64,000 bases of DNA from Desulfonispora thiosulfatigenes DSM 11270 (GTDB lineage: Bacteria > Bacillota > Peptococcia > Peptococcales > Desulfonisporaceae), in the NCBI RefSeq assembly GCF_900176035.1, contig NZ_FWWT01000022.1, positions 186,001 through 250,000 on the forward strand. Reading direction: 5' to 3'. Below are positions 21,785-51,106 of the stretch, piece after piece. The position numbers and the translations under genes were made by a program. A model generated the notes under the pieces. The model was not told the DNA's origin. It did not search any database and was given only the letters and a program-made list of their open reading frames with translations. Position 1 is the stretch's first letter, and each line of letters opens with the position of its first letter.

Positions 21785-22393
21785 ATGCAATGGCTTAAGA
21801 TAATTTCTTTTGGTTATTTACTTGGTTCAATTCCTTTTGGGCTTATAATAGGTAGATTATATGGTAAGGATGTAAGGAAATTTGGAAGTAAAAACATTGG
21901 TTTTACTAATGTTTGGCGAGTAATTGGGCTTGTTCCTGCATTGCTTGTATTAACTTTAGATGCACTCAAGGGATATTTATCCGTATATTATGGTTATCAA
22001 ATAGGTGGTGAATTATTTGCTATTGTAGGGGCAATAGCGAGTGTTTGTGGACATATGTTTCCTCTTTATCTTAAATTTAAAGGTGGTAAAGGTGTAGCTA
22101 CCGCTTTAGGAGTAATAATTTTTTTATCTCCTAAGGTAACACTTTTTGCAGTTATTATTTGGTTAGTTGTAACATTTATAACTAGGTATGTTTCACTTGC
22201 ATCAATTTTAGCTGCAATATTTGTGCCTTTTGGCATGTATTTTTTACAAAAACCATTAGTTTATGTAATATTTGCAATCATTGGATCAATTTCTATTGTA
22301 TTTAAGCATTCTGAAAATATAAAAAAACTAATTAATAGGACAGAAAATAAAATAGGTTCTAAAATTTCTATTTCGAAAGGAGGACCATTATGA
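21785..22393 (+). CDS. plsY: Acyl-phosphate:glycerol-3-phosphate acyltransferase
   Basis: An integral membrane enzyme transferring the acyl group from acyl phosphate to glycerol 3-phosphate, the first step of phospholipid synthesis. Its three conserved motifs are visible: GSIPFGLIIGR (14-24), the KNIGFTNVWRV region, and GHMFPLYLKFKGGKGVATALG (about 96-116). 202 residues. Its TGA overlaps the gpsA ATG (ATGA), coupling the enzyme to the one that makes its substrate. Confidence 0.95.
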   Translation: MQWLKIISFGYLLGSIPFGLIIGRLYGKDVRKFGSKNIGFTNVWRVIGLVPALLVLTLDALKGYLSVYYGYQIGGELFAIVGAIASVCGHMFPLYLKFKGGKGVATALGVIIFLSPKVTLFAVIIWLVVTFITRYVSLASILAAIFVPFGMYFLQKPLVYVIFAIIGSISIVFKHSENIKKLINRTENKIGSKISISKGGPL

Positions 22394-23564: not shown

Positions 23565-25085
23565 ATGAACTATGATAAAGTAGAAAAACTAGAAGAACTT
23601 GAGGACTTTGAAAATTACACAATTTTTGAGGACATTGCAAATCGAACAGGTGGTAATATCTATGTTTCAGCTGTAGGACCTGTTCGCACAGGTAAATCAA
23701 CCTTTATCAAAAAGTTTATGGATTTAATAGTATTACCAGCAATAGAGGATAAATATGACAAAGAAAGAACTATTGACTCTTTACCACAAAGTGGAGCTGG
23801 AAAAACTATTATGACAACTGAACCTAAATTTGTTCCAGATGAAGCTGTACAATTACAAATTAGAGATGGAATTAATGTTAAAGTAAGATTAGTTGATTGT
23901 GTTGGTTATTCAGTTGAGGGAGCTCTTGGTTATGAAGAAGCTGATGGACCAAGAATGGTACGAACTCCATGGGCAGAGGATCCAGTACCCTTTCATGAAG
24001 CTGCTGAAATTGGTACAAGAAAAGTAATAACTGACCATTCTACTATAGGTCTTGTAATTACAGCTGATGGAAGTTTTAATGATATTCCAAGAGAAAATTA
24101 TATTGATTCTGAACAAAGGGTAGTATCAGAGTTAAAAGAATTAAACAAACCATTTATAGTTTTATTAAATACGATTAATCCTGAAGATCAAGAAACTTTA
24201 GAACTTGCAGAAAGTTTAGAAAAGAATTATGATGTACCAGTTATACCAATGAACATTGCACAAATGGAAGAAGAAGAGCTAATGAGAGTTATGGAAGAAG
24301 TTCTTTTTGAATTCCCAGTTGCGGAAGTAAACATTAGTTTACCAAAATGGATAGAAGAACTTGAAAATGAGCATTGGTTAAGAGCTCAATTTGAGGATGC
24401 AGTACATAGCACAATTAGTGAAGTTAAAAGATTAAGGGATATTGATAATGCAATTGAATGTTTAGCTGCTTATGATTTTGTAAATGATGTTGTAATTGAT
24501 AATATGGATATGGGTACAGGGATAGCTCATATAAAAATGTCTGCAGAAGATAGTTTATTTTACAGAGTTTATAAAGAGATAACTGGTGAAGAAGTTGCAG
24601 GTTTACATGATATTATTAACTTAACAAAAGTTTATGTAGATACTAAAAGAGAATATGATAAAGTTGAAAGTGCTTTATTAGATGTAAAAGAAACTGGTTA
24701 TGGAATGGTTGCTCCAACATTAAGTGAAATGAGTTTAGAAGAACCTGAATTATTTAAGAAATCAGGAAACTTTGGAGTAAAATTAAAAGCTAGTGCACCA
24801 ACTTTACACATAATTAGGTCTGATATAACTACTGAAATTACTCCTATGATGGGATCAGAAAAACAATGTGAAGATTTAGTTAGATATTTATTAGAAAAAT
24901 TTGAAGAAAACCCAACTTTAATGTGGAACTATGATATTTTTGGAAAATCACTTCATGATTTAGTAAATGAAAACATTCAAGGCAAATTACAGAAAATGCC
25001 TGAAAATGTGCAGCGTAAATTACAAGAAGCACTTAAACGTGTTGTAAATGATGGTAGTGGTGGGCTAATTTGTATTATAATCTAA
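23565..25085 (+). CDS. spoIVA: Stage IV sporulation protein A
   Basis: SpoIVA is the ATPase that polymerises on the forespore surface as the basement layer of the spore coat, anchored by SpoVM. The 506-residue protein (Bacillus 492) carries the Walker A GPVRTGKST at residues 38-46, the DCVGY-type Walker B region (RLVDCVGYSVEGALGYEE) and the long TRAFAC-like middle with long coiled segments, ending in the conserved hydrophobic C-terminus (NDGSGGLICIII). It stands alone between terminators with a sigma-E-like promoter, as expected for mother-cell expression. A SpoVM homologue is found at 50625-50690. Confidence 0.97.
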   Translation: MNYDKVEKLEELEDFENYTIFEDIANRTGGNIYVSAVGPVRTGKSTFIKKFMDLIVLPAIEDKYDKERTIDSLPQSGAGKTIMTTEPKFVPDEAVQLQIRDGINVKVRLVDCVGYSVEGALGYEEADGPRMVRTPWAEDPVPFHEAAEIGTRKVITDHSTIGLVITADGSFNDIPRENYIDSEQRVVSELKELNKPFIVLLNTINPEDQETLELAESLEKNYDVPVIPMNIAQMEEEELMRVMEEVLFEFPVAEVNISLPKWIEELENEHWLRAQFEDAVHSTISEVKRLRDIDNAIECLAAYDFVNDVVIDNMDMGTGIAHIKMSAEDSLFYRVYKEITGEEVAGLHDIINLTKVYVDTKREYDKVESALLDVKETGYGMVAPTLSEMSLEEPELFKKSGNFGVKLKASAPTLHIIRSDITTEITPMMGSEKQCEDLVRYLLEKFEENPTLMWNYDIFGKSLHDLVNENIQGKLQKMPENVQRKLQEALKRVVNDGSGGLICIII

Positions 25086-38434: not shown

Positions 38435-38586
38435 GCGTAAAATTGTTTTTTTAACACAATATTACTGATCGAAGAGATGATTAGCAATAAATTAGTATTA
38501 CCATTGCCGAAAAAAAGTTAAATTGACTCTTAATATTTAAAGTGTTAGGATTATAATCATATTTTTAAGTTGTAAGCTGGAGGATG

Positions 38587-39938
38587 ATGAAAGTGCGTGT
38601 GGTTATTATTGGAGCTGGAAAAGTCGGCTATAATATAGCAGAAATATTATCTTTAGAAAATCATGATATTATCGTGATTGAAAAGGATGAAGAACGATAT
38701 AAAATTGTCCAGGAGAACTTAGATGTAAAGGTTATTAATGGATCTGGGTCAAGTACAGCTGTTCTTTTAGAAGCTGAAATATTTGAGACGGATTTATTAG
38801 TTTCGGTTACTCAAAGTGATGAATTAAATATGATTGCGTGTATGTTAGCCAAGCAATATGGAGTTCCTAAAACCATCTCTAGAGTTAGAAATCCAGAATA
38901 TGCTGAAGGTAATAAATTAACTAATAGTTTAACATTAGGGATAGATCTTATAATTAATCCTGAAAAGGTAACTGCACTTGAAATAATGCAATTAATAGAG
39001 GTGCCTGAAGCAATTGATGTTGAGTACTTTGCAGAAGGTAAACTTCAATTTTTAGAGTTAGTTATAGATAAAAAATCACCAGTCGTAGGAAAAGCTTTAA
39101 AAAATATAGATTTTGTATATAGATGTGTAATAATTGGAATTTCTAGAAAAGGGAAAATGATTATTCCACGAGGAAATGATAAAATTTTAGAAAAAGATAT
39201 AATTTTTGTTTTAGCAAAAACTAAAGACATGATTCATATTGAAAAGGCTATCGGTAAAAAAAGAAGTAAAATAAAAAGCGTTATGATTTTAGGTGGAAGT
39301 CGCATAGCCTATTATTTAGCGAAAAGTTTAGAAAAGAAAAAATAGGTGTTAAAATAGTTGAAAAGGATCATGTGCGTTGCAAAGAACTAGCTAGAGATTT
39401 AAATACGTCTATGGTTTTACATGGTGATGGTACAGATTTAGACCTTTTAGAAGAAGAAGGAGCAGGACAAGTTGATTTATTTGTTTCTCTAACTGATGAT
39501 GATAAGTTAAATTTACTCGTGTGTTTAATAGCAAAACATCTAGGTGTTAAAAAAACAATAGCTCAAATAAGGCGTTCTGATTATTTACCTTTAATTGAAA
39601 GCGTAGGAATTGATATAGCAGTAAGTCCTAGATTATTAACTGCAGCTGCTATTTTAAGGTTTATTAGAAGGGGAGATATTGTTTCTGTTTCTTTTCTTGG
39701 AGGAGCAAAAGCAGAAATGATTGAATTAAACATTCAAGAAAAGTCCAAAATAGCAAATAAGACTTTACAAGAACTACCTTTTCCTCGAGAAGCAATAATC
39801 GGAGCTATTGTAAGAGATGGGGAAGAAATAATCCCAAAAGGTAGCGATTATTTACTACCTAAAGATAGGGTGATTATTTTTACGTTGCCTAGGGCAGTAA
39901 CAAAGGTAGAGGCATTTTTTCAAAAGTATAATTTTTAA
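38587..39938 (+). pseudogene. trkA: Trk potassium uptake regulator TrkA, interrupted by a frameshift
   Basis: TrkA is the cytoplasmic NAD-binding gate subunit of the Trk potassium channel. The first frame holds an RCK-N domain (VVIIGAGKVGYNIAEIL), an RCK-C domain and the start of the second RCK-N (SVMILGGSRIAYYLAKSLEK). The second frame (from about 39343) continues with GVKIVEKDHVRCKELARDLN and the final RCK-C. The break is the A6 run at 39337-39342: one more A restores a normal protein of about 450 residues. trkH follows, so the locus is otherwise intact. A second TrkA fragment with its own start is unlikely: no ribosome-binding site is seen there. Confidence 0.85.
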
Positions 39939-45334: not shown

Positions 45335-46580
45335 ATGAAGAGTAAAATTAAAGATATTAATTTAGCGCCAAGTGGTCATAAAAAAATAAATTGGGTTAAA
45401 AGTCATATGCCAGTATTAAATTTAATTGAGAAACAATTTGAAAAAGACAAACCATTTCAAGGTAAAAAAGTAGTAATCTGCCTTCATTTAGAAGCAAAAA
45501 CAGCTTATTTAGCAAAAGTAGTACAAGCAGGAGGAGCAGAGGTTACTGTAACTGCTAGTAATCCTTTATCAACGCAAGATGATGTTGTAGCTGCATTAGT
45601 TGATAGTGGAATAACTGCTTATGCGTGGCATGGTGCTACTGATGAAGAGTACTTTGCTCATATTGATTTAGCAGTAAATTCAAAACCTAATTTAATAATA
45701 GATGATGGAGGGGATATGGTAGCCTTATTTCATAAAAAATATCCCGAGTATCTAGAAAATATTATTGGTGGGTGTGAAGAAACTACTACTGGTATTGTAA
45801 GACTTAGATCTTTAGAAAAAGAAGGAGTACTTAAAGTTCCGATGATTGCTGTTAACGATGCTATGAGTAAATATTTATTTGATAATCGTTATGGAACCGG
45901 ACAATCTGTATGGGATGGCATTATGAGAACTACAAATTTAGTTGTAGCAGGGAAATCCGTAGTAGTTATTGGTTATGGATGGTGTGGAAAAGGTGTAGCT
46001 ATGAGAGCAAAAGGATTAGGGGCAAATGTTACAGTTTGTGAAATTGACCCAATTAAAGCTACTGAAGCAATCATGGATGGGTTTAGAGTAATGCCAGTAG
46101 AGCAGGCTTCAGAGATAGGAGACTTTTTCATAACAGTAACAGGAAATAAGAATGTGTTACGTGCAGAGCATTTTAGCAGCATGAAAGACAAAGCAATTTT
46201 AGCTAATGCAGGTCACTTTGATATTGAAATTTCTAAGCCTGATTTATGTGAGTTAGCAGAAAGAACAAATAATGCTAAACCTAATATAGAAGAATATATT
46301 CTAAAAGATAGGAAAAAGAATTTATTTATTAGCCGAAGGACGATTAGTTAATTTAGCTGCTGGTGATGGACATCCTGCTGAAATAATGGATATGACCTTT
46401 GCACTACAAGCACTATCTTTAGAATATATGTTAAATGATACTACGCTTACAGGCAAAGTATATAATGTTCCTGAAATAATTGATAAAAAGGTGGCAACTA
46501 TTAAATTAAACTCATTAGGTGTAGAAATAGATGAATTAACAGAAGAACAGAATGTATATTTAAATAGTTGGCAGATTTAA
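45335..46580 (+). pseudogene. ahcY: Adenosylhomocysteinase, interrupted by a frameshift
   Basis: AhcY splits S-adenosylhomocysteine into adenosine and homocysteine. The first frame carries the catalytic and NAD-binding parts: [60 protein letters not shown] and [20 protein letters not shown]. After KDRKKN (about 46310) it leaves frame and stops at 46351. One base fewer near 46309-46310 gives the normal continuation [20 protein letters not shown] and a full C-terminus to 46580, for about 415 residues. The lesion is not in a long homopolymer, unlike the others here. GGAGG precedes ATG 45335. Confidence 0.88.
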
Positions 46581-46615: not shown

Positions 46616-49357
46616 TTGAAAAACTTTTCTTTTGTAGCTTTAGATTTAGAAACTACGGGTTTAGATGAATCAGCAGAAATCATAGAAATTGGCTTAGTTA
46701 AGTTTATAGATGGGGAAATTACTGATAAATATCAAACACTTTTAAAACCATCTAAACCTATTTCTAAAGAGATAGAAGAACTTACAGGTATAACTAATGA
46801 GATGCTTAAAGACAAACCAAAGTGGGCCATGATTGAACACGATGTCCTTGATTTTATAGGTCAAGATTTTTTAGTAGCCCATAATGCATCTTTTGATTCT
46901 GGATTTATTAGTAGAGTAACCGATAAGTTAATTGAAAAAATATGGGTAGATACTTACCAGTTAGCTAAAATAGCTTTACCAACTATACCTAATTATAAAT
47001 TAGCTGATATTGCTCAGTTCTTTAACTTAAAAATAGAAAAATATCATAGAGCTGCTAATGATGCTGAAATGGCAGGAAAGATATTACTGAATTTAGCTAA
47101 AACATTGTTTAAGTATTCGCCGTTTTTGATCCAGGAGAATATTGAATTATTGCAAAATACAAATGATGGTTTAACATATATTTTAAAAAATGTACAAACA
47201 AAAATTATTTCTAAATTTAGTTATGATGAAAATATACACCAGGGACAAGAACAAAACTATTCAAATACTGCCTTAAATATTAAAGAAGGATCTGAAACTT
47301 TAAAACCTGGTGGTATAATAAGTTCATGTTATAATAATTATGAATATAGAGTAGAACAAGTTAATATGTTAAAAGTAGTAGATAAAGCTTTTTTAGAGAA
47401 TAAACATGCTATAATAGAAGCTGGTACAGGAATAGGTAAATCAATGGCCTATTTAATCCCTGCCCTTATTTGGGCACAAAAAAAAGAAAAAAAGGTTATA
47501 ATAGCAACTCATACAATTGCTTTACAAGAGCAATTATTTAAAAAGGAAGTTCCCTTTTTAGAAAAGTGCTTTGAGGTAAAGTTACCAGTAGCGATTATAA
47601 AAGGAAGAAATAACTATATATGCAAAAGAAGATTTGAAAAAATAAAAGTTCTTAAAAAAACCGAAAGTAAAGAAAATATTTTTTTGATTCAAATTAATAA
47701 TTGGCTTAGTGAAACAAAATACGGAGATAAAGAAGAACTTAATTTAAAAAAATATGAAAATGAGTATTGGCATCAAATATCTTCGCAAAGTGAAACGTGT
47801 TTAGCTAGAAAATGCCCTTTTTTTTACAAAGAATGCTTGTATATGAAAAATAAACGACATTCAGAAAAGAGCAATATAATTATAACCAATCATGCTTTAT
47901 TACTACAAGATGCCAAGATTAATAATAAATTATTACCTGAATATGATTATGCAATTATAGATGAAGCACATAATCTTGAAGAAGAAGCAACCGAACAGTT
48001 TGCAACAAAAGTAGACCTTTTAAAGGTTATTAAATTATGTAATCAGCTATGTAAAGGAAAAAACATAGGCATTATAGATCGCATAAACTTCCAAATAACA
48101 AGTAGTGATAATTTAGGGAATTTTGATTTAGTCAAAGAAAATATTCAAATAATTAAAGACGAAACACAAATACTAAAGTCCAAAGTTTTAGAGATTAAAG
48201 AATTATTTTTTAATAGTAGAATAAGTAATTTCGATGAAACAAGAATTACCCAAAAAGAAAGAATGTCTCCGGAATGGATTTGCTTTTTAGAACAGTTAGA
48301 TGAGTTAAAAAACTTTATAACTTCATTAAAAGTAAAATTAGTGAAAGTAATTTCTTATCTTGATAGTATCGAAAAACTTGAAGATTATAATAAGGAAATG
48401 GATTTTATAGTTAAGATTATTTCTGAAAATATCGAAACATTAAACATATTTTTAGAAGGTAAAAATCCAAACTATGTATATTGGATTGCAAGCAATAAAG
48501 GTAATAATTTTCAAAATCTCATTATATTCACAGCACCAATAGAAATAGGAAGTATCTTGAGTAAAAATTTATTTAATGATAAAAAATCTATAGTTTTAAC
48601 TTCTGCAACATTAAGCGTAGCAGGAAGTTTTGACTATACTATTAAATCTTTAGGTTTAAAAGGTTATGATATTTTACAATTTACGGCTAATTCCCCTTTT
48701 AACTACAAAAATAAATCTCTTATATGTATACCCTCAGACATTCCAGATCCTACTTTAACATCTGAGGATAATTATACAAAAGAAATTATAAATAATATAA
48801 AGACAATTTTAAAAGTAGCTAAAGGTGGAGTATTAATTTTATTAACTTCTAATAAAATGTTAAATAAAATATATTATGCCTTAAAAAAGGATAGTAATTT
48901 AAAGGATAAAAATATTTTAACCCCGGGAATAGATGGAAGTAGGACTACTGTAATAAAACAACTAAAGGATAATATAAGTACAGTAGTATTAGGTGTTAAT
49001 AGTTTTTGGGAAGGTATAGATGTAAAAGGGGATGCTTTAACAACAGTTATAATAGTAAAATTACCATTTGTACCACCTACAAGACCTGTTGTTGCTGCAA
49101 GATTAGATAAACTTAAAGAAAATGGGGAAATGGGTTTCTTTGTTTATAGCTTACCTAAGGCAATATTAAAATTTAGACAAGGATATGGGAGATTAATTAG
49201 AGATAAAAATGATTGGGGAGCATTAATTATTTTAGATCAAAGAATAATTTCCAAGAATTATGGAAAACAGTTTTTATCATCTTTACCCTCACAAAGGATA
49301 ATCCAAGATACAAGTAAAAAGGTTTATAATAGTTTGGAAAAATGGGTTAATAATTAA
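46616..49357 (+). CDS. dinG: DinG-type helicase with N-terminal DEDD exonuclease domain
   Basis: A 913-residue fusion like the Firmicute DinG. Residues 1 to about 165 are a DnaQ-like 3'-5' exonuclease (FVALDLETTGLD, HNASFDSGFI, YHRAANDAEMAG). The rest is an XPD/DinG superfamily 2 helicase with Walker A EAGTGIGKSMAYLIP (about 263-277), four clustered cysteines for an Fe-S cluster (NYICKRR, then SETCLARKCPFFYKECLYM), the DEAH box IIDEAHNLEEEA (about 447), and the C-terminal motif FRQGYGRLIRDKNDWG. Start TTG 46616 after GGTGG. Acts in DNA repair. In staphylococcal DinG the helicase activity is lost, so the nuclease may be the main function. Confidence 0.92.
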   Translation: MKNFSFVALDLETTGLDESAEIIEIGLVKFIDGEITDKYQTLLKPSKPISKEIEELTGITNEMLKDKPKWAMIEHDVLDFIGQDFLVAHNASFDSGFISRVTDKLIEKIWVDTYQLAKIALPTIPNYKLADIAQFFNLKIEKYHRAANDAEMAGKILLNLAKTLFKYSPFLIQENIELLQNTNDGLTYILKNVQTKIISKFSYDENIHQGQEQNYSNTALNIKEGSETLKPGGIISSCYNNYEYRVEQVNMLKVVDKAFLENKHAIIEAGTGIGKSMAYLIPALIWAQKKEKKVIIATHTIALQEQLFKKEVPFLEKCFEVKLPVAIIKGRNNYICKRRFEKIKVLKKTESKENIFLIQINNWLSETKYGDKEELNLKKYENEYWHQISSQSETCLARKCPFFYKECLYMKNKRHSEKSNIIITNHALLLQDAKINNKLLPEYDYAIIDEAHNLEEEATEQFATKVDLLKVIKLCNQLCKGKNIGIIDRINFQITSSDNLGNFDLVKENIQIIKDETQILKSKVLEIKELFFNSRISNFDETRITQKERMSPEWICFLEQLDELKNFITSLKVKLVKVISYLDSIEKLEDYNKEMDFIVKIISENIETLNIFLEGKNPNYVYWIASNKGNNFQNLIIFTAPIEIGSILSKNLFNDKKSIVLTSATLSVAGSFDYTIKSLGLKGYDILQFTANSPFNYKNKSLICIPSDIPDPTLTSEDNYTKEIINNIKTILKVAKGGVLILLTSNKMLNKIYYALKKDSNLKDKNILTPGIDGSRTTVIKQLKDNISTVVLGVNSFWEGIDVKGDALTTVIIVKLPFVPPTRPVVAARLDKLKENGEMGFFVYSLPKAILKFRQGYGRLIRDKNDWGALIILDQRIISKNYGKQFLSSLPSQRIIQDTSKKVYNSLEKWVNN

Positions 49358-49458: not shown

Positions 49459-49971
49459 ATGGGTACTAAAATTATCATCCCTAATATGGTTACTCTATCT
49501 AATTTATTATTAGGAATTATTTCTTTGAATTATACGATGAATGAACAATATACAGTTGCAGCTATTTCAATATTATTAGCTATGATGATGGATGGTATGG
49601 ATGGTAAAATTGCGAGGAAACTAGATGTAGCTTCTAATTTTGGGAAGCAATTAGATTCTTTATGTGATTTAGTTTCATTTGGTGTGGCACCAGCGCTTTT
49701 AGTTTATGGTAGCTCTTTACAAGCTATAGGACCAAGTGGTCTCATTATTGCATTAATATTTGCTCTCTGTGGTGCAATACGCTTAGCTAGATTTAATGTT
49801 TTAGACATTAATGATCATTTTATTGGAGTTCCAATTACCTTTGCTGGATCTTTATTAGCTTTAGCTGTTTTAATAGCTAGCAGACTTCCGTTATCTGTTT
49901 TGTTTTTTTCCGTATTTACATTACTTCTAGCTTACCTAATGGTAAGTAATTTAAAAGTACCAAAATATTAA
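49459..49971 (+). CDS. pssA: CDP-diacylglycerol-serine O-phosphatidyltransferase
   Basis: A CDP-alcohol phosphatidyltransferase of 170 residues. The signature D-G-x2-D-G-x2-A-R-x8-G-x3-D-x3-D is present in MDGMDGKIARKLDVASNFGK and QLDSLCDLVSFGVAPA (about residues 44-78). N- and C-terminal helices complete a six-helix membrane enzyme. PssA (serine) is the best fit by length and the VSFGVAPA text, making phosphatidylserine for phosphatidylethanolamine. No psd gene is adjacent. GGGGGAG precedes the start. Confidence 0.9.
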   Translation: MGTKIIIPNMVTLSNLLLGIISLNYTMNEQYTVAAISILLAMMMDGMDGKIARKLDVASNFGKQLDSLCDLVSFGVAPALLVYGSSLQAIGPSGLIIALIFALCGAIRLARFNVLDINDHFIGVPITFAGSLLALAVLIASRLPLSVLFFSVFTLLLAYLMVSNLKVPKY

Positions 49972-50058: not shown

Positions 50059-50628
50059 ATGGTATATTATCTATGGGTATTTTTATTTAGTTTTTTCTTA
50101 AATGATGCTAGAATTCTTTACAATATATTAGGTGAATTTTTAAGCCATATTAAATATAAAATAGTTTTCCAAGAATTAGGAATATTATTTTTATTGGTTT
50201 GCATTACTCTAAACTTTTGCAAAGGATTTTTTATTATATTTAATGCAGATAGTTCAGATAAATTTATTTTAGCGTTGCTTTTATTACTAGGAAATTTCTT
50301 AGGAGCAAGACCTGGAATCACGGGGGGGAGTGAATTTATCTTGCTATGGGGAATTTGGTTTGGTTATGATATAGTACTCGTAAAAATACCCCTAGCCATA
50401 TTTTTAGGAATATTTATTATATTTAAAAACATTAAATTATCTTTATTTTCGAGTTATATAACTATGTGCTTAATTTTATTATTTAATAATTGTTACTCAA
50501 TATTTTTTCTTTCGTTTTTAACTTTATTCACTACAAATGGAATAAATAAAGAACTTTTTATTATCAACTTTAATAAACTAAAAGAGAAAAAGTTTTTTAT
50601 TAACCAAAGAGAGGTGAATGATTTATGA
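50059..50628 (+). CDS. Multi-pass membrane protein, possibly a degenerate PlsY relative
   Basis: A 189-residue, strongly hydrophobic protein with about five helices. I do not recognise it with certainty. The segment LLLLLGNFLGARPGITGGSEFILLWGIWFG (split here: LGNFLGARPGITGGSEF) echoes the third motif of PlsY, in which GH-F-x-x-x-x-F-x-GGKG follows a helix, but the key lysine and first motif are missing. Its TGA overlaps the ATG of spoVM (ATGA), so the two are translationally coupled. A CATAATATA sequence at 50016-50024 resembles a mother-cell -10 box. A sporulation role is therefore likely, by inference. Confidence 0.6.
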   Translation: MVYYLWVFLFSFFLNDARILYNILGEFLSHIKYKIVFQELGILFLLVCITLNFCKGFFIIFNADSSDKFILALLLLLGNFLGARPGITGGSEFILLWGIWFGYDIVLVKIPLAIFLGIFIIFKNIKLSLFSSYITMCLILLFNNCYSIFFLSFLTLFTTNGINKELFIINFNKLKEKKFFINQREVNDL

Positions 50629-50690
50629 AGATTTATTATATTCCTTTACCAGAATTTTTAAGAGGTGTTTTAAGAAAAATTGTAAATTAA
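50625..50690 (+). CDS. spoVM: Stage V sporulation protein M (21 residues)
   Basis: The 21-residue peptide MKIYYIPLPEFLRGVLRKIV-N aligns with Bacillus SpoVM (26 residues) at Met1, Lys2, Tyr4, Ile6, Leu8, Pro9, Phe11, Leu12, Gly14 and Arg17. Pro9 and the amphipathic helix are the features used to sense forespore membrane curvature. SpoVM anchors SpoIVA, encoded at 23565. The start overlaps the stop of the membrane-protein gene, with AGAGGTG eight bases upstream. It is too short for ordinary gene finders. The C-terminal tail is five residues shorter than in Bacillus. Confidence 0.88.
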   Translation: MKIYYIPLPEFLRGVLRKIVN

Positions 50691-50715
50691 AAGAGGAGCT
50701 AAATGCTCCTCTTGA
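50688..50715. terminator. Bidirectional terminator between spoVM and the TIGR04086 gene
   Basis: AAGAGGAGC/GCTCCTCTT, 9 bp with a TAAAT loop. T-rich tail on the minus strand side; serves both convergent genes. Confidence 0.75.
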
Positions 50716-50719
50716 AAAA

Positions 50720-51106
50720 TTAATTACCTGCTAATCCTACACCGATAACTCCACCTAAACCACTACCTAATACAGCATAAAGAATTTTCTTAGCCAATAA
50801 GCCTCCTGAAAAAGTATCTCCAGCTATAAAAGAGCCTATAATTAATGCAAATGCAAGATAAGTAAGACCTACCCCCAGTCCATGCAACAATCCTTTAGAA
50901 CCTGCTATTTTAGATGATATTGTACTACCTAAAAGAATACTTACAAAAAAGATTAAACTAGCCAAAGCAGGTATATAGCTTTCTGATAATGATGAAAAGT
51001 GCAAGGTTAGTGTAATAATTAATGTTAAAACAAATGAGATAATTATAGCACCTAATGCCCCTTTTAAAATAGCGCGTCCCTTGATTCCTTCAATAGCTCT
51101 AGTCAT
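50720..51106 (-). CDS. TIGR04086 family membrane protein
   Basis: A 128-residue four-helix membrane protein with alanine/glycine-rich helices (LKGALGAIIISFVLTLIITL, LASLIFFVSILLGSTISSKIAGSKGLLHGLGVGLTYL split over two helices) ending in LGSGLGGVIGVGLAGN. This pattern and length match the TIGR04086 family of spore-forming Firmicutes, whose function is unknown. A GGAGG site precedes its ATG on the minus strand. It converges on spoVM and shares a terminator with it. Confidence 0.8.
   Translation of the reverse strand: MTRAIEGIKGRAILKGALGAIIISFVLTLIITLTLHFSSLSESYIPALASLIFFVSILLGSTISSKIAGSKGLLHGLGVGLTYLAFALIIGSFIAGDTFSGGLLAKKILYAVLGSGLGGVIGVGLAGN

Follow-up and report, generated by a model that had tools for sequence, protein, structure and literature searches.

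A probable short sister form of SpoVM encoded beside lipid-synthesis genes in Desulfonispora thiosulfatigenes

In Bacillus and other bacteria, the coat of the developing spore is attached by the peptide SpoVM, which together with SpoIVA makes up the base of the endospore coat. Four residues of SpoVM have been described as functionally critical (K2, I6, P9, and I15; PMC5607322). By its published description, the SpoVM of C. difficile is a small clostridial mother-cell protein with Pro9, as the form discussed here is predicted to be, and differs in its sigma-E control and in being largely dispensable; it binds SpoIVA in vitro (PMC5607322). In many clostridia, SpoVM went undetected in the survey by Galperin et al. 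2012, which left undecided whether distant versions exist (PMC3533761).

The initial annotation of the window, i.e., the whole stretch of 64,000 nucleotides of Desulfonispora thiosulfatigenes DSM 11270 analyzed here, had proposed a 21-codon spoVM that overlaps the preceding gene by an ATGA. Its closest described counterpart is SpoVM of B. subtilis (2MVH; NF011327, PF08183), with which the short form shares the pattern MK-x-Y-x-I-x-LP-x-FL, Pro9, a net positive, possibly amphipathic C-terminal half, and the presence of SpoIVA in the genome. However, the short form has 21 residues instead of 26 with a basic C-terminal tail, carries I or V for F at position 3 and mostly P or K at position 7, scores below the curated cut-offs, faces a TIGR04086 gene instead of rpmB, and has a different upstream motif.

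The 21-codon ORF and its match to SpoVM

The features of the window that are relevant to this locus are as follows (positions are those of the window).

21785-22393: canonical plsY, beside gpsA and spoIVA
23565..25085, + strand: spoIVA (TIGR02836, 764 bits, cut-off 459.9), the expected partner, 25 kb from the short spoVM
46616..49357, + strand: dinG-like helicase/exonuclease, conserved upstream neighbor (named from our own reading of the sequence)
49459..49971, + strand: pssA, phosphatidylserine synthase, conserved neighbor (TIGR00473, 135 bits, cut-off 107)
50059..50628, + strand: membrane protein, degenerate PlsY paralogue (PF02660, E 0.0027, 18.3 bits, below the cut-off of 24.1), with the ATGA overlap with spoVM
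50552..50580, + strand: promoter-like motif AACTTTTT-N12-AATAAACTA, 73 bases before the ATG and within the 3'-terminal part of the PlsY-like gene
50610..50617, + strand: Shine-Dalgarno sequence AGAGGTGA, 7 nt 5' of the short spoVM ATG
50625..50690, + strand: probable short spoVM, 21 codons plus TAA, peptide MKIYYIPLPEFLRGVLRKIVN
50691..50713, no strand: terminator-like hairpin AAGAGGAGC-taaat-GCTCCTCTT, lying between the short spoVM and its convergent neighbor, read directly from the sequence
50720..51106, - strand: TIGR04086/DUF3792 membrane protein gene, convergent with the short spoVM and its hallmark neighbor

The ORF is present as described, its ATG sharing ATGA with the TGA of the 50059-50628 gene, and it has its own strong ribosome site, with AAAGGGGTGA or similar in the relatives. 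The encoded peptide is indeed five residues shorter than Bacillus SpoVM and carries every residue that had been listed as common to both, including Pro9. It aligns without gaps with residues 1-19 of B. subtilis SpoVM (PDB 2MVH), which was its best match among 177,635 distinct PDB sequences (E 0.042); the other of the two hits was a second B. subtilis SpoVM entry with A replacing P at position 9 (2MVJ). Three of the critical residues, K2, I6, and P9, are identical, while position 15 has V for I. The C-terminal half is net positive and may form an amphipathic helix after Pro9; the hydrophobic moment of 0.74 is reached by 3.8% of shuffles.

Among family models, the best matches of MKIYYIPLPEFLRGVLRKIVN are those for SpoVM, in register from residue 1 and with an E value of 4e-4 for NF011327. 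All scores are nonetheless below the curated cut-offs (18.0 bits vs 20.6 for PF08183, 16.4 vs 31 for NF033436, and also 19.9 vs 55), and a genome-wide search gave E 0.06. The match of this single peptide to SpoVM, taken alone, is thus suggestive only. No second spoVM was found in the genome by the genome-wide search or at the rpmB locus, which lies far off on the same contig and has no SpoVM-like ORF beside it. Neither of the two conditions that the initial annotation gave for its refutation thus applied, as the frame is also conserved in relatives (see below). One other SpoVM match in the same genome (C16:60707) was rejected as a chance hit, being antisense inside an 88-aa ORF without an ATG or ribosome site.

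Conservation and distribution of the short form

Relatives of the 50059 gene were found in 5 of 39 related genomes, all from one sister family, and a search for micro-ORFs behind these genes recovered a 21-codon ORF in all five (MKVYYIPLPNFLRKFLKKVIK and the like). Within its own order, a SpoVM-like ORF of 21 codons thus sits at the equivalent position in 6/6 genomes of two families, in the gene order dinG, pssA, PlsY-like gene, micro-ORF, convergent TIGR04086 gene, TPR gene, lepB, and surE. The six orthologues are identical in length, and their pairwise differences fall on codon positions 1/2/3 in numbers of 76/28/149, a bias that indicates purifying selection on the peptide. We accept the short spoVM as a real gene because its frame is conserved in relatives, its own score being too weak. 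A scan of the named genomes with a strict pattern that included codon limits gave four matches, all in the sister family of five genomes. In another family of the order (f2, with G001, G007, G008, G010, and others), SpoIVA is present and neither form of SpoVM was detected; there, SpoVM may have been lost or may have diverged still further.

We then searched a phylum-level sample of 399 genomes. A profile built from the six short peptides matched 91 of them at E <= 0.01, and one built from 25 short peptides matched 125, with relatives of 21-25 residues; the weakest few of these matches are partial, e.g., in G215, where it spans residues 5-17 within a 70-aa frame. On the same sample, PF08183 matched 36 genomes, 23 of them above its cut-off and at another locus. 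P9 is invariant in the short-form relatives (25/25), and the start, ribosome site, frame, and length of the gene are conserved throughout the phylum. Ten short forms compared with NCBIfam and Pfam all scored below the cut-offs, so routine annotation would miss such genes or leave them unnamed. Since the short form falls outside the current curated models, we treat it as a shorter sister of SpoVM. Comparison of the short and canonical profiles with hhalign (96.6%, E 6e-10, 21 columns without gaps) strongly supports homology of the two forms at the profile level. Some genomes of the class carry a short SpoVM with a longer N-terminus, and extended variants that begin with MKDIKAVYFIPLP or similar stand at L147 and L192-L197.

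The two forms did not occur as separate genes in any genome of the sample, a mutual exclusion with a hypergeometric p of 3e-4 in a test that ignores phylogeny. Of the 23 canonical genomes, a single one (G096) was matched by the short-form profile as well, and both matches lie at one place: its sequence MKFYTIKLPGFLAKLLRGFLGKGNKGQES is intermediate, scores with both models, and sits at the rpmB locus. G050, from the same family, carries the short-form promoter motif. The SpoVM identity proposed initially therefore stands through homology, but the gene is not a single oddity; it belongs to a short form that is found across the clostridia and has a conserved locus different from the canonical one.

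The short form also tracks SpoIVA, which is encoded in 122/125 short-form genomes vs 213/274 others (Fisher p 4e-8, phylogeny ignored). The three exceptions are G274 (75% complete), G215 with its partial match, and G120 (a fragmented assembly). Within the class, SpoIVA is found in 19/19 short-form genomes vs 15/27 others (p 5e-4, uncorrected for relatedness), and none of the 12 class genomes without SpoIVA has the short form.

Neighboring genes and a promoter-like motif

Canonical spoVM faces rpmB at 22 of 23 loci, whereas no short-form locus does. The short gene instead faces a TIGR04086 gene at 31/35 loci of the phylum, 6/6 of its own order, and 12/12 of the class, and no TIGR04086 gene lies opposite spoVM at the canonical loci. 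Because this neighborhood played no part in finding the short peptides, it guards independently against drift of the profile.

The gene upstream had been regarded as an unknown membrane partner whose translation is coupled to that of the peptide. It does encode a membrane protein, though not an unknown one: at the family level it is a relative of the glycerol-3-phosphate acyltransferase PlsY (PF02660), with GGSE in place of GGKG and with the GH motif lost too. PlsY-family genes precede the short spoVM also at L144, L153, L163, and L166, while in other lineages a dinG or DUF3786 gene takes this place; a functional partnership of short SpoVM with the PlsY paralogue is thus possible but not general. 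The case for the proposed coupling is weak. Only two of the six orthologues, that of the window and one from the sister family, have the ATGA overlap; in two others the upstream frame ends 5 or 18 bases before the micro-ORF, and in the remaining two it runs ca. 50-62 bases into it. The gene also has its own ribosome site and, in the relatives, a conserved promoter-like motif inside the upstream gene. As the ATGA is not conserved, we reject coupled translation as the arrangement shared by these loci. Further upstream in the window, an adenosylhomocysteinase-like and a TrkA-like gene (45335-46580 and 38584-39938) are each split into two frames beside A-rich runs, which may reflect either sequencing indels or pseudogenes; in relatives, the adenosylhomocysteinase-like gene is intact and encodes 414 aa.

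Some 60-80 bp upstream of the short spoVM lies a conserved motif, CAC-N15-18-AATA-N2-3-TA (mostly CACYTTTT...AATAnnATA). With a pattern chosen after inspecting the sequences, it was found in 29/46 non-redundant upstream regions, compared to 0.18 on average and at most 2 in 300 shuffled sets, and at the same loci there are 30 matches in 7,360 upstream bases vs 9 in 271,258 other bases. The copy in the window is weaker, with AAC for CAC, and does not match the strict pattern. In genomes of the sister family whose PlsY-like gene extends to this position, the motif likewise falls within the 3' end of that gene. The short spoVM thus apparently has its own promoter. Across four genomes, the strict promoter pattern gave three matches, none of them in the window genome and two at a short spoVM. 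The third (L190, G006:C104:11-38) precedes a gene of the PRK06851 family, which may be a sporulation gene under the same regulation.

The sigma-E and sigma-K promoters of C. difficile have their -10 element in common and differ in the -35 element, ATA vs AC (PMC3789822). The motif upstream of the short spoVM has AC at -35 and a -10 element of the CATA type, though beginning with A and not C, and this resemblance suggests recognition by a sigma factor of the mother cell that would be closer to sigma-K than to sigma-E. A promoter common to spoIVA and the short spoVM was considered and rejected, as the region upstream of spoIVA has a different conserved element (GGACATATATATAGTATTGTTAAAGAG, ca. 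100-170 bases upstream of spoIVA at L065, L066, L071, and L073; ca. 23515 in the window).

A shortened coat anchor and its alternatives

The short gene is conserved as a protein, tracks SpoIVA, replaces canonical spoVM, and has a conserved neighborhood and motif. We consider it probable, at roughly 85%, that the ORF in the window is a genuine gene whose product, a shortened homologue of SpoVM, anchors SpoIVA at the membrane of the forespore. From the homology, the linkage to SpoIVA, and the exclusivity with canonical spoVM, we infer that the peptide would be expressed in the mother cell during sporulation, under control of its own promoter, enter the outer membrane of the forespore in amphipathic form, kinked at Pro9, and there bind and anchor SpoIVA as the base of the coat. 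Several observations speak against this reading: the scores below all curated cut-offs, the absence of the last five Bacillus residues, the different locus, a motif more like that of sigma-K than of sigma-E, and family f2 with SpoIVA and without a detectable SpoVM.

Since membrane and lipid genes are conserved around it and the peptide is small and positively charged, it could also be a SpoVM-like membrane peptide that serves PssA, the PlsY-like protein, and the TIGR04086 protein instead of SpoIVA, much like a small accessory subunit. This appears improbable, as several lineages keep the peptide without the PlsY-like gene and pssA beside it, the residues critical for SpoVM are retained, and the occurrence of the short form follows SpoIVA and excludes canonical spoVM. 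A convergent amphipathic peptide, i.e., a non-homologue that took over the role of SpoVM, would account for the differences in locus and C-terminal half, and a match over 21 residues holds little information. However, the two profiles agree in register from Met1 over all 21 columns at the E value given above, and the bridging sequence of G096 at the canonical locus and the promoter motif in its family-mate G050 connect the two forms, so convergence seems highly improbable. The weak single-sequence scores of MKIYYIPLPEFLRGVLRKIVN would fit a chance ORF or a regulatory leader without a functional peptide, but this explanation is close to refuted by the dominance of third-position differences and by the phylum-wide retention of start, ribosome site, frame, and length.

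Beyond the reading as a shortened SpoVM homologue, it is conceivable, if doubtful, that this SpoVM is functionally distinct, i.e., a minimal, tail-less anchor of 21 residues, relocated to a lipid-synthesis neighborhood and to a different class of promoter, which would time and tune coat anchoring differently, perhaps with the degenerate PlsY paralogue acting as its membrane partner during sporulation specifically. In a literature search that covered subscription papers incompletely, we found the short form described nowhere.

In our sample, the short form was found in about five times the number of genomes in which the curated Pfam model detects SpoVM (125 vs 23), and it supplies a concrete gene, locus, and candidate promoter for each of them. 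It also suggests that a coat anchor that senses curvature may need no more than 21 residues. The short form thereby bears on the question raised by Galperin et al. 2012, i.e., whether distant SpoVMs exist in clostridia that seemingly lack SpoVM.
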